A DNA stretch of 64,000 nucleotides, taken from positions 16,917,501 to 16,981,500 of the forward strand of contig NC_085129.1 of NCBI RefSeq assembly GCF_030269925.1, given 5' to 3'. Below, in pieces: positions 15,329 through 21,530 of the stretch. This DNA comes from Bombyx mori (Eukaryota; Arthropoda; Insecta; Lepidoptera; Bombycidae). Within the stretch, counting starts at the first letter, position 1, and each line of letters opens with the position of its first letter. The translations under genes were made by a program, and so were the position numbers. Under the pieces are notes generated by a model. That model searched no databases, had not been told where the DNA came from, and saw only the letters and a program-made list of their open reading frames with translations.

Positions 15329-15535
15329 TATTACGGTTTTACATAACAATAAAACCGATATTATGTGCCGAGAAGGAAAACATACAGCATTGTATTATGA
15401 AGAAGCAGTGTGTACTTAGCTTAGATTCCTTGTCTATATCCAACCATAGACAGTCAATTTAGTTCTATCTTTAGCCGCTAGGTGCTGCCAGCAAGTATAA
15501 AGGGAGCGCAGCCATCTTTGATCTTCATAGTCTTC
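15329..15535 (-). repeat. DIRS right inverted terminal repeat
   Basis: From the GGAAAACATACAGC string to TCTTCATAG it is the inverted counterpart of 21361-21510. It has its own outer extension (about 45 bp, beginning TTACGGTTTTACATAACAAT), as expected for DIRS, where the right repeat is longer than the left. TATAAAGGG at about 15497 could be promoter-like within the repeat. Confidence 0.82.
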
Positions 15536-15553
15536 ACCAGGAAGAACTTCCTG

Positions 15554-15658
15554 CAATGCTGTATGTTTTCCTTCTCGGCACATAATATCGGTTTTATTGT
15601 TATGTAAAACCGTAATATTGATGTGCCTTTGGAAAACATACAGCATTGTATTATGAAG
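15554..15658 (-). repeat. DIRS internal complementary region (circle junction)
   Basis: Two joined halves. 15554-15613 is the reverse complement of the right terminus (15329-15391); 15614-15658 copies the left terminus as read at 21530-21486. This join of both ends is the defining ICR of DIRS elements and marks both element borders. It also makes a roughly 300-bp hairpin-capable segment, 15329-15613. Confidence 0.85.
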
Positions 15659-15899
15659 ACGTGTTTGTTATCTGCTGGTGAAATTATTAAGCACAACGCT
15701 ATGATAAAATAGGTAAAGCCATAATAAAATTATGAAGCGCAATGATAATGTTCATAATTTATATAATTATTAAATCGAAAAAACAGTTGTTAACTTCCAC
15801 GTTAATTCAATAATTAAAAAATATTTATAAGTTTGTAATAAACATTTTATCTTGTATATACAAGAAAATGTATAAATTGTATAAATGATGTATATACAT

Positions 15900-16800
15900 C
15901 ATGTAGAAGTAAATGTGTTGAAAAAAAAGAATCGTGAGGATCTTTACGAAGCTCTATTATTCGGCAATAATTATTGTAAACGTTTGGATGATTTGCAATT
16001 GCCTCTAGAAAGTATTTCGTCCATTGGTTCATTATCAATCCATCTCAGAGGCTACTGCTGATCTACCACTTCTTAGAGATGCGTTGATGCCATTACCTCG
16101 TAAGGTTGAACGAAGACCAGTTTCCAATTACAGTACGGGATGCCGCTTTTGTGACAACACACATAGTTAGAAAAAAGTCCTTACGAATCTTACCGGGCAT
16201 GTCTTTAGTTTCATGTTTAGAAAGCACTTATGCAGATTATTGACGAAAATGGATTTCAATTTTAGACCCAAAGACTGGTATCAGAAAGATGTTTTTCTCT
16301 GTTATCAAAGAAACTGTCTTTAGAAATGTTGAGCAAAGTAAGGTCATTAACTCTGCGTCCCGTAGCCAGCAACATGGTTGTTGGTGTCCTTCAAGCTACA
16401 TTGAGGCGTGATGTGGTGGCTGGGTTTGAAGAAAACCAGTTTAGAACTATTCTCGGATCTCATGTGAATGGGACTACACTTAGTAAAATTGTAATAAGTA
16501 GTTGAATTTTGTTTAGCTATTCCGATGGCTTTTTTAAAATAGCAATTTTTATTAGAGAGCTTGAGAATGTTTGCTGTCCTACATGTATTTCGCCCACAGA
16601 AAGTCGACAGCGCTGCTTTATGATGCAGAAGGGTTGTTTTATAGGCAAAATTTTCTTTTTGGAAAAGAAGAAAGAATTTGGCAACATCTGCAGACTTAGG
16701 ATCAATTTTAAAACTGTAGCACCATATGCACCATCTTCTAGTTGCTGGTAAGTATGCTGACAAAGTGGATTGACACCAGCTAATTTTCAACAAATCTTCT
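15900..16800 (-). pseudogene. DIRS tyrosine recombinase remnant
   Basis: Minus-strand frames read STLSAYLPATRRWCIWCYSF and DPKSADVAKF (core-binding domain), then GRRVNDLTLLNISKDSF (first catalytic Arg context), ASRTVIGNW, RSAVASEMD, and finally MDEILSRGNCKSS followed by NVYNNYCRIIEL, matching the GNWKS..TF..YYRREI tail that bears the catalytic tyrosine. At least three frameshifts separate these blocks. Confidence 0.8.
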
Positions 16801-17402
16801 CCTGTTTAGACCAGTCTATTATTTGTACAACCTCCCCCCCCCCCCCTTCTAAGCTTTCAGGGTTAATGTTTAACCTGTGGAGGAGGCAGGTTTTGGATTT
16901 CGTGCGAGTTGTCTAGCGTTCGGGATCTGAGGGCTTGGAAACCCAAATGCTTTCGCTCAGTCTGGGAACACTACCAGGTAGGTTCCCTAGATACTGTTGA
17001 AGTGAGTCAGTACTTTGGGGAGAAGGTTGAGAGGAGGAATTCTCCATGCTAGTTGCATCCTCTACGGTCTGCTGAAGGTATCCAATCTTGGTCGGCGAAT
17101 GGGTTTATATCCGGATGACTCCACTTTCGAAAAACTTTTGTGGTCACTTGTGGTAAAAAGTGCCATTTCGCAGGTTGATTTCCTCGTGATAGCCTGTCGG
17201 CTATGATGTTGTATCTCCCCGAGAGATAAGCTGACAGTTATCTTGAACTTATCGCTTAGGTTTAAAAATCGAAAGGTCAACGTTAGTGAAATACTTTCAG
17301 ATTCATTTTGATTGTCACTACCATTGCAAATAGCTCTTTTGTGGGTGAGCCGTTTCTGTTGTTGAGCTGACCATAGACAGGACGTTAATATTTTGTCTAA
17401 TT

Positions 17403-19112: not shown

Positions 19113-19114
<2 letters not shown>

Positions 19115-19524
19115 GGTATTTGGTAACCATACATGGTTTACAAATTATTACAATTTTGGTGGCACTCAGTGCCTCCCGTCGGTGTCTTCAATTGCCCCCC
19201 TCTGGATTGTGCCAGATGTTACAGACTATGATTGTTTATAATGTTTGGCTTACCTTTTGTACGAGATCGTGACAAATAGGATTATAGCCCTCCGAGGGAC
19301 TGAATAGATTTCAATTTACTATTATCAAACAAAAATTCCTCAATGAGTGGTGCGTTGGCAACAGGATACTTTGTTAGAGACCACGGAAATTAAACTTTGA
19401 CGTGTTATTTCTATACATACGGCCCTTTTTTCCGTATACAATTTAAAACGCTTTTTACGGGTAACTTGTACGACGGAGACGATTTGTCAAAGTTTTCAGT
19501 AATTATGTTACAAAGATTATTAGT

Positions 19525-19905
19525 TTAAATCTGTTGTGTTTTTGTCAAAATTTCCGTATTGACGAGATCAATTTGTTTACAACATTTTTCGTTACATTCA
19601 ATTGTTACACACAGTTGATGCATTATTAGATTTACAACGTCACTGACCTGGTGGGATAACGAGCCGATTCGAAGATCGACCGTTACCTTTGAATCCCGTC
19701 GTTTCTTACGCAGAGACTCCTTTTGTTCTTTTTCGCTTGACGAGCTGTTCGAACGCGAGGCGTCTCCATCGCGTCTCGCCTGGACATCTTCCCTCTCGGA
19801 AATTATGGAGCTTGACTCAACATCACCTCCAACAGATGACGCGTGATTCATGGCGTCCGATGATAGGATTGGTAAATAATACTCGTAATGATTGCAAAAT
19901 AACAC
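19525..19905 (-). pseudogene. DIRS ORF1 (gag-position) remnant
   Basis: Open frame of about 126 codons lying between the left terminal repeat and RT. Ser/Glu/Arg-rich start (MNHASSVGGDVESSSIISER), then KKRRDSK and hydrophobic SHQVSDVVNLIMHQL. Assigned to gag only by position and composition; no motif is diagnostic. Confidence 0.5.
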
Positions 19906-20009
19906 TCATAGAAACACAAAATAAATATTTTTTGCAATTAATAAGAAGTCGAATAAATATTTGTGGACTTGCGACTTCACAGTACGAAAGTACACAACGC
20001 TATGAAGAT

Positions 20010-21360
20010 TTTTTTTTTTTTTTTTTTTTAAACCTACCTAAGCTGATAGCCCTAGCGGCTATATCAGCGTAGCCCTAACTTTAGTAGGTGAGCTCACGGG
20101 GCTCAAACCTGACGATGTTGCTAACACGAACCCTAGCAAGAGTCGTGCTTCGCAGAATCTACCACCGGATCGGAAACGCGACCCACTGAGAAGATCCGGC
20201 GAGAAACTCAGTGGGCTGTGTCTGAGAGTTAATTTACTCGTCGAGCCCTTCGTCGCAAGCGACGGGTTCGACGAGAACGGTGACCGGTGCTTGAATTACC
20301 TAAAAGCACCGTTAGTGGATCGGGCGGGTCCGAGATGACGTGTTTTGGGCGACGTCGACTGCTTTCCATTCTGTCCGCAGGATCGGGAATGTAGTTACCG
20401 GCGGCCACGATGAGAGGGTTCTCATGTCGTGCCGCTTTATCGAAGTGGCGCATGGACGCCGACTGCAGATACTTACTGATGGACTCTAAGTCCAGGTCGT
20501 CATGGAGGTCGACGTTCCTGACGAACCACGGGGCTCCGACGGCTATCCTGCAAAAACGGGATTGAATAATTTGGAATGACTTTAAGTGAGTGCGGGCCGC
20601 GTGAGCGAACACTACACTTGCATAGGTCATGACGGGGCGTATGCAAGTTTTGTAGAGTGTCACCTTATTTCTAAGGGACATTTTACTTCGCCTACATATC
20701 ATCGGGTAGAGACGTCCTAGAATGAAGGCGGCACGATCGCGTACCGTCTTGATGTGGGGGCGGAATGTCATCCTACTGTCGAGGGTGACGCCTAAATGTT
20801 TGACCTTCGGGGCCCACGGTATGGGCTGGTCGAACATCGTGATTGGGCGAACGGCGGGGGCGGGGGTATTGACGCGCCTAGTCGGGAGGGGGATGCTCAG
20901 CGTGGTGTTCGGAGGGCGACCCCTTTTGAAGAGCACCGCTGTGCTTTTCGTGGGGTTAATGTCGATGCGCCACTTCCGGAACCACTGTCCCATGGTGGTA
21001 GCCGCGGTCTGAAGTCGTCGATGAAGCAACGCCTTCTTCCTACACGAGTAGTAGATGGCGGTGTCATCGGCGAAGAGCGCTAGATGGGTCTCCGGAGACC
21101 GGGGTATATCGTTGATATACAAACTAAATAGTAACGGGGAGAGAGCGGAGCCTTGCGGGACTCCGGCTGTGACGTGACGGGGCCGGGAACGCGTTCCCTC
21201 GACTCGATATCGGAACGAACGGTTCGACAAGTAGTCTCGTATGATGAGCACGAGTCTGTCTGGCACTCCCATGTTATACAGTTTGTATATCAAACCGTTG
21301 TGCCAGACTTTGTCGAACGCCTTCGCTATATCGAAGAAGAGGGCTCCTGTCGGAATGGGT
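20010..21360 (-). mobile_element. Jockey-clade LINE, 5'-truncated, inserted in DIRS
   Basis: Non-LTR retrotransposon inserted by target-primed reverse transcription. The poly-A tail (T run 20010-20028 on plus) and about 200 bp of 3' UTR are at low coordinates, with ORF2 C-terminal RT above. It is flanked by perfect 9-bp duplications TATGAAGAT at 20001-20009 and 21361-21369. Its 3' UTR is the master sequence for the many CTGAGAAGATCCGGCGAG-bearing tails elsewhere in the window. Confidence 0.93.
20229..21293 (-). CDS. Reverse transcriptase, C-terminal part of jockey-like ORF2
   Basis: Open frame of 354 codons with no internal stop. Shows the RT palm: GVPQGSALSPLLFSLYINDI, then ALFADDTAIYY with the catalytic DD, then WRIDINPTKSTAVLF and HLGVTLD (thumb side), and a C-terminal VTLYKTCIRPVMTYASVVF. 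It ends [20 protein letters not shown]. Upstream endonuclease and most RT fingers are missing through 5' truncation, so it is a non-autonomous but relatively young copy. Confidence 0.92.
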   Translation of the reverse strand: MIYKLYNMGVPDRLVLIIRDYLSNRSFRYRVEGTRSRPRHVTAGVPQGSALSPLLFSLYINDIPRSPETHLALFADDTAIYYSCRKKALLHRRLQTAATTMGQWFRKWRIDINPTKSTAVLFKRGRPPNTTLSIPLPTRRVNTPAPAVRPITMFDQPIPWAPKVKHLGVTLDSRMTFRPHIKTVRDRAAFILGRLYPMICRRSKMSLRNKVTLYKTCIRPVMTYASVVFAHAARTHLKSFQIIQSRFCRIAVGAPWFVRNVDLHDDLDLESISKYLQSASMRHFDKAARHENPLIVAAGNYIPDPADRMESSRRRPKHVISDPPDPLTVLLGNSSTGHRSRRTRRLRRRARRVN

Positions 21361-21530
21361 TATGAAGATCAAAGATGGCTGCGCTCCCTTTATACTTGCT
21401 GGCAGCACCTAGCGGCTAAAGATAGAACTAAATTGACTGTCTATGGTTGGATATAGACAAGGAATCTAAGCTAAGTACACACTGCTTCTTCATAATACAA
21501 TGCTGTATGTTTTCCAAAGGCACATCAATA
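21361..21530 (-). repeat. DIRS left inverted terminal repeat
   Basis: The plus-strand text here is the reverse complement of 15372-15535, sharing the TATAAAGGGAGCGCAGCC string and the flanking AGCCGCTAGGTGCTGCCAGC. The outer 20 bp (ATATTGATGTGCC in element sense) do not match the right repeat but reappear at 15614-15658 inside the internal complementary region. Confidence 0.85.

Follow-up and report, generated by a model that had tools for sequence, protein, structure and literature searches.

How does a retrotransposon whose coding interior is in ruins come to possess ends that still agree with each other to the last base? The question is raised by a DIRS1-like element on the minus strand of a 64,000-nt stretch of Bombyx mori DNA (contig NC_085129.1, positions 16,917,501 to 16,981,500; hereafter the window). 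We are confident that positions 15327-21531 of the window represent a degenerate copy of an already known kind of Bombyx DIRS1-like retrotransposon. The inverted terminal repeats (ITRs) and the internal complementary region (ICR) of this copy are perfect, whereas its open reading frames (ORFs) are broken, and this combination bears on whether such copies can be moved by the proteins of intact relatives.

Terminal repeats and the internal complementary region

The frame of the element is set by the following features, all on the minus strand:

15327-21531, minus strand: the whole DIRS1-like element, with its 5' end at about 21529-21531, its 3' end at about 15327-15329 and an AATAT core at both borders
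21516-21531, minus strand: 5' outer terminus (the divergent part of the ITR), complementary to the left ICR
21361-21515, minus strand: conserved part of the 5' ITR, 155 bp, matching 15375-15529 at 155/155 positions, with one further matching base (by eye) beyond a nested long interspersed nuclear element (LINE)
15554-15659, minus strand: ICR, made up of a left ICR (15615-15659) and a right ICR (15554-15619) that overlap at the junction core
15375-15529, minus strand: conserved part of the 3' ITR, the reverse complement of 21361-21515
15327-15374, minus strand: 3' outer terminus of 46-48 bp, composed of the divergent ITR and the right extension; the right ICR is its complement

The right side of the ICR aligns in inverted orientation with the 3' outer end at 68 of 69 positions (15554-15622 against 15324-15392). 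The sole mismatch lies outside the element border, and counted inward from 15327 the agreement is 66/66. The left side (15615-15659) matches the inverted 5' end (21487-21531) at 45/45 positions. The ICR is, accordingly, the reverse complement of both outer ends fused to each other, with 111/111 positions matching within the borders, and it lies only 161 nt from the 3' terminus. Perfect repeats of this length are not expected to arise by chance within 7 kb. A sequence-only reading of this stretch had described both terminal repeats together with an ICR corresponding to the inverted right end fused to the left end, and had proposed the inverse alignment of 15554-15613 with 15329-15391 as its test; each of these was recovered. 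The borders that it gave, 15329 and 21530, are right to within 1-2 bp, but the ICR does not, as it supposed, fix the exact base: AATAT is present in each of the two flanks and a single time in the ICR, so that the base of crossover is ambiguous by a few base pairs.

An 18-bp block, GGAAAACATACAGCATTG, recurs in both ITRs and both halves of the ICR (at 15375 and 15631 on the plus strand and at 15554 and 21498 on the minus strand). Piednoel et al. 2011 (PMC3266345) describe such a block, 10 nt or longer, shared across the ITRs and the ICR of DIRS1-like elements. Three words taken from the termini have no further site in the window even with up to three mismatches allowed. The exact 29-base ITR word has no match in the viral or prokaryote contig collections, which derive from other hosts and are uninformative on Bombyx.

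Coding remains and relationship to BmDIRS1

Remnants of gag, reverse transcriptase (RT)/RNase H, the region that follows and a tyrosine recombinase (YR) lie on the minus strand in DIRS1-like order, interrupted by internal duplications and a poly(A) tract:

19288-19851, minus strand: gag remnant, located by tblastn with the relative P0010, the first ATG of a 126-aa frame lying at about 19851
19044-19112, minus strand: poly(A) tract (69 T on the plus strand) between the gag and RT remnants
17787-19035, minus strand: RT remnant, FLRKKSDGSMRPILDLRE ... YLDD, located by tblastn with relatives
17898-18729, minus strand: tandem array of RT palm-segment copies, 60-94% alike, within the RT remnant
17401-17596, minus strand: 98-bp tandem duplication, 92/98 positions identical
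16830-17787, minus strand: frameshifted RNase H together with the region that follows, which by its position would be the DIRS methyltransferase-like part, located by alignment to relatives
15847-16805, minus strand: YR remnant (GRRVNDLTLL; RSAVAS; NVYNNYC), with a SAM-like N-terminal part at about 16799-16593

The ORFs of this copy are broken, and it is not intact. The motifs YLDD, GRRVNDLTLL, RSAVAS and NVYNNYC, which the sequence-only reading had placed on one strand in the expected order, do lie on the minus strand in that order but are spread over three frames. RSAVAS and NVYNNYC, which we spotted by eye in the translations, we take to be catalytic boxes. The same reading overlooked the broken frames, the RT tandem array, the 69-T run at 19044-19112 and the LINE at 20010-21360.

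Using as a query the element stretch translated with X at stops, we recovered, from 2633 candidates, 16 proteins at E values of 1 or lower, the best being 4.4e-35. The six that are named are all lepidopteran, coming from Pararge aegeria, Loxostege sticticalis, Vanessa cardui, V. atalanta (two) and V. tameamea. Pfam detected RVT_1 and RT_RNaseH in all four relatives scanned. The lepidopteran DIRS-type proteins P0002 (P. aegeria), P0006 (L. sticticalis), P0008 (V. cardui) and P0012 (V. atalanta) carry RT and RNase H in the order seen in the copy, and P0008 and P0012 also share with it the placement of the recombinase domain; unlike those of the copy, their frames are open. A SAM-like N-terminal phage-integrase domain was found by Pfam above the cut-off in P0008 (PF13495) and below it in P0012, and residues 584-655 of P0008 align with 16799-16593 at 52% (tblastn, E 4e-17). 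In a frame-tolerant alignment of P0008 residues 201-783 with 17760-16179, which spans RNase H to YR, 245 of 512 aligned residues are identical, with 22 frame switches at the penalties chosen, 5 stops and 85 gap codons. The matches to gag are weak, with residues 19-90 of P0010 falling on 19815-19603 (E 4e-7) and residues 237-318 on 19524-19288 (E 5e-3). The stretch from RNase H to YR can be aligned with the relatives, yet no Pfam methyltransferase model matched the four scanned; the methyltransferase label is taken by position from the element layout in PMC3266345. Nine separate broken frames of the element gave only sub-cut-off Pfam matches (E 0.14 for the YLDD frame against RVT_1, and no lower than 0.013 for families that are unrelated), and three gave no NCBIfam match. 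P0006 had no relative among the viral contigs (0/19 pattern matches), a collection of other hosts that is uninformative on Bombyx.

The palm-segment copies of the RT remnant are arranged head to tail, repeating at intervals of about 102-108 bp and about 150-283 bp; such an array of RT fragments inside a retroelement is an unusual mode of decay. Beyond the T run, about 170 bp up to 19290 lack a match to P0010, and about 165 residues of P0010 (318-484) are unmatched between the gag and RT remnants. Positions 19044-19290 are perhaps the trace of a small retroinsertion coupled with a deletion of the gag-to-RT sequence.

By its terminal measurements, the copy most likely belongs to the BmDIRS1 family of Bombyx mori. 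Table 3 of Piednoel et al. 2011 (PMC3266345) gives for BmDIRS1 a length of 4,870 bp, a start of ATT, an end of ATA, a junction of AAT, no left extension, a divergent ITR of 16, a conserved ITR of 155, a right extension of 30 and an ICR of 40-62. The copy starts with ATT and has an AAT(AT) core, no left extension, a divergent ITR of 14-16, a conserved ITR of 155-156, a right extension of 30-32 and ICR parts of 43-45 and 66, so that its junction and its terminal and ICR dimensions lie within about 5 bp of BmDIRS1 on each value. Among the other entries of the table, 27 in number and one of them without values, none gives a conserved ITR of 155. The published end is ATA, and that of the copy is ATT or ATA, depending on the border chosen. 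The copy measures 6,203 bp from ATT to ATT, or about 4,843 bp once the LINE body (1,351 bp) and a single copy of the 9-bp target duplication are subtracted, but this similarity of total length to BmDIRS1 is weaker evidence and partly chance, given that the copy has lost sequence as well as gaining the array and the poly(A) tract. Further points likewise counsel caution: the family name rests on measurements rather than on an alignment, the separate broken YR frames gave no Pfam recombinase match, and the frame-switch counts in the P0008 alignment vary with the penalties. The copy also differs from BmDIRS1 in its broken ORFs, RT tandem array, poly(A) tract and nested LINE. Dictyostelium discoideum DIRS1 likewise combines ITRs with an ICR that lies close to the 3' end and overlaps at the junction, but Dictyostelium DIRS1-2 differs in its conserved ITR of 304, its TAA junction and its length of 3,793 bp (PMC3266345).

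The repeats and the protein relatives thus bear out the sequence-only reading in its identification of a DIRS element with a circle-junction ICR, and its "silkworm-like" label agrees with both the BmDIRS1 measurements and the lepidopteran relatives. The novelty that it implied does not hold: the copy is most likely of a known kind, since termini built in this way were described for a family of Bombyx in 2011, when six DIRS1-like copies in two families were counted in Bombyx mori and BmDIRS1 was annotated (PMC3266345). The implied rarity in insects is not supported either, inasmuch as well-conserved DIRS1-like elements were reported from 3 of 22 hexapods, including Bombyx mori, as of 2011 (PMC3266345), and a 2019 arthropod survey counts DIRS among the most widespread groups of the long terminal repeat (LTR) type (PMC6327564).

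Identical ends around a decayed interior

Within the borders, the comparisons of the ends comprise 0 mismatches in 266 positions (155 + 66 + 45, partly overlapping), against 26 in 456 for three internal tandem pairs (6/98, 4/149 and 16/209), with 9 gap columns set aside and the third pair shortened so that its copies do not overlap. These three are the closest duplications, the others being more diverged (60-76%), which makes the choice conservative. The difference is significant by Fisher's test (P 9e-6; for the ITR pair alone, 0/155, P 8e-4). At the 5.7% divergence of the duplications, 0/266 would have a probability of 1.7e-7, and the 95% upper bound on the pairwise divergence of the ends is 1.1%. 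Given this identity of the ends and the ICR and the scrambled state of the coding interior, the ORFs were most likely dead at the last round of replication.

In the published model of DIRS replication, the RNA would be reverse transcribed, both ends would be aligned on the ICR and the circle would be closed, after which the YR would cross the junction core with an identical short chromosomal sequence, leaving no target duplication. The three AATAT sites, one at each border and one in the ICR, are in keeping with such a crossover. As this replication is expected to renew the ends and the ICR together, the interior seemingly died before the last move, which points to help in trans. We therefore lean, by a modest degree, toward a copy that was already coding-dead at its last round and owed its move to proteins supplied by an intact relative. 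Action in trans by autonomous proteins on copies that retain the required sequences is described in general terms in PMC8498967 and PMC5633606, where "non-autonomous" is applied to LTR-, LINE-, short interspersed nuclear element (SINE)- and miniature inverted-repeat transposable element-type elements. The broader proposition, that intact relatives in this genome still bring about the replication and insertion of DIRS copies whose ORFs are wholly dead, with the ITRs and ICR sufficing, appears to us evenly poised. If it holds, the ends were renewed after the interior had collapsed into the tandem array, and perhaps even after the insertion of the LINE. The LINE entered beside the inner end of the 5' ITR, either earlier or later than the last round. 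In Xenopus tropicalis, some degeneration of terminal repeats or ORF domains is reported for 36 of 75 DIRS-like families (PMC9210276). We found no paper using the phrase "non-autonomous DIRS," spelling variants included, in the literature searched, and claim no priority.

Several considerations pull away from mobilization in trans. The pair with 4/149 mismatches, taken alone (5 gap columns set aside) against the ITR pair only, yields P 0.06; the repeat comparisons share bases and are not fully independent; and the age contrast could have arisen through gene conversion, or because the duplications brought together copies that had diverged beforehand. The main rival is gene conversion, according to which an old insertion decayed in place while conversion kept the ITRs and ICR identical with no help in trans. 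It would account for 0/266 versus 26/456, and the inverted arms and the proximity of the 3' terminus to the ICR would favor pairing. However, it needs three separate pairings, one between the ITRs over 5.8 kb and one of the ICR with each end, and the identity would have to stop at the borders; we regard it as possible but on the unlikely side. A recent autonomous insertion that decayed after integration would also have identical ends, but a divergence of the ends capped at about 1.1% hardly seems to leave room for the 22 frame switches, the 5 stops and duplications that differ by 3-8%, and we consider this improbable. Least credible of all is that the element belongs to another YR-bearing type, inasmuch as PAT and Ngaro, though they too combine RT and YR (PMC3266345), are set aside by the inverted termini with an ICR and by the lack of split direct repeats in the self-comparison of the element, and Crypton is set aside by the presence of an RT. 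Apart from T runs and the internal arrays, that comparison shows a single direct repeat, 29 nt long, which is explained by the ITR and ICR.

As a find, the copy carries little weight and is ordinary except for its fresh ends and ruined middle, but perfect ends and an ICR joined to ruined coding regions make it serviceable as a natural test of whether the ends of DIRS elements function in trans.

The nested LINE and other repeats in the window

The insertion at the 5' end of the element lies between the 5' ITR and the gag remnant, in the same orientation as the DIRS element:

20010-21360, minus strand: 5'-truncated Jockey-like LINE with a poly(A) end, flanked by a 9-bp target duplication, TATGAAGAT, at 20001-20009 and 21361-21369

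Its open frame of 376 aa (20229-21359, minus strand) matches RVT_1 of Pfam at 7e-28, whereas its RT matches in NCBIfam are below the cut-off. Named jockey elements of Papilio and Eumeta stand within the best 120 of 4043 relatives (7986 scored). In the self-comparison of the window, the 3' part of the LINE recurs at many sites, which are mostly 80-91% alike among the matches listed. The LINE frame is also 99% identical to P0018 and P0019 (over 83% and 79% of its length), which are recorded as Acinetobacter baumannii proteins from contigs some 2.2 kb long, and 87% identical to a third protein, P0020. These matches look like lepidopteran, perhaps silkworm, DNA within bacterial assemblies.

Elsewhere in the window, a short interspersed repeat of about 220-250 bp is abundant on both strands, its copies being mostly 85-93% alike among the matches listed (272-516, 3113-3330, 22165-22393, 27251-27494, 45002-45244, 50370-50620, 58541-58785 and others); it is SINE-like. 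A local tandem array occupies 45548-46065, with self-matches 82-89% alike at offsets of about 66, 130, 218 and 284 bp.

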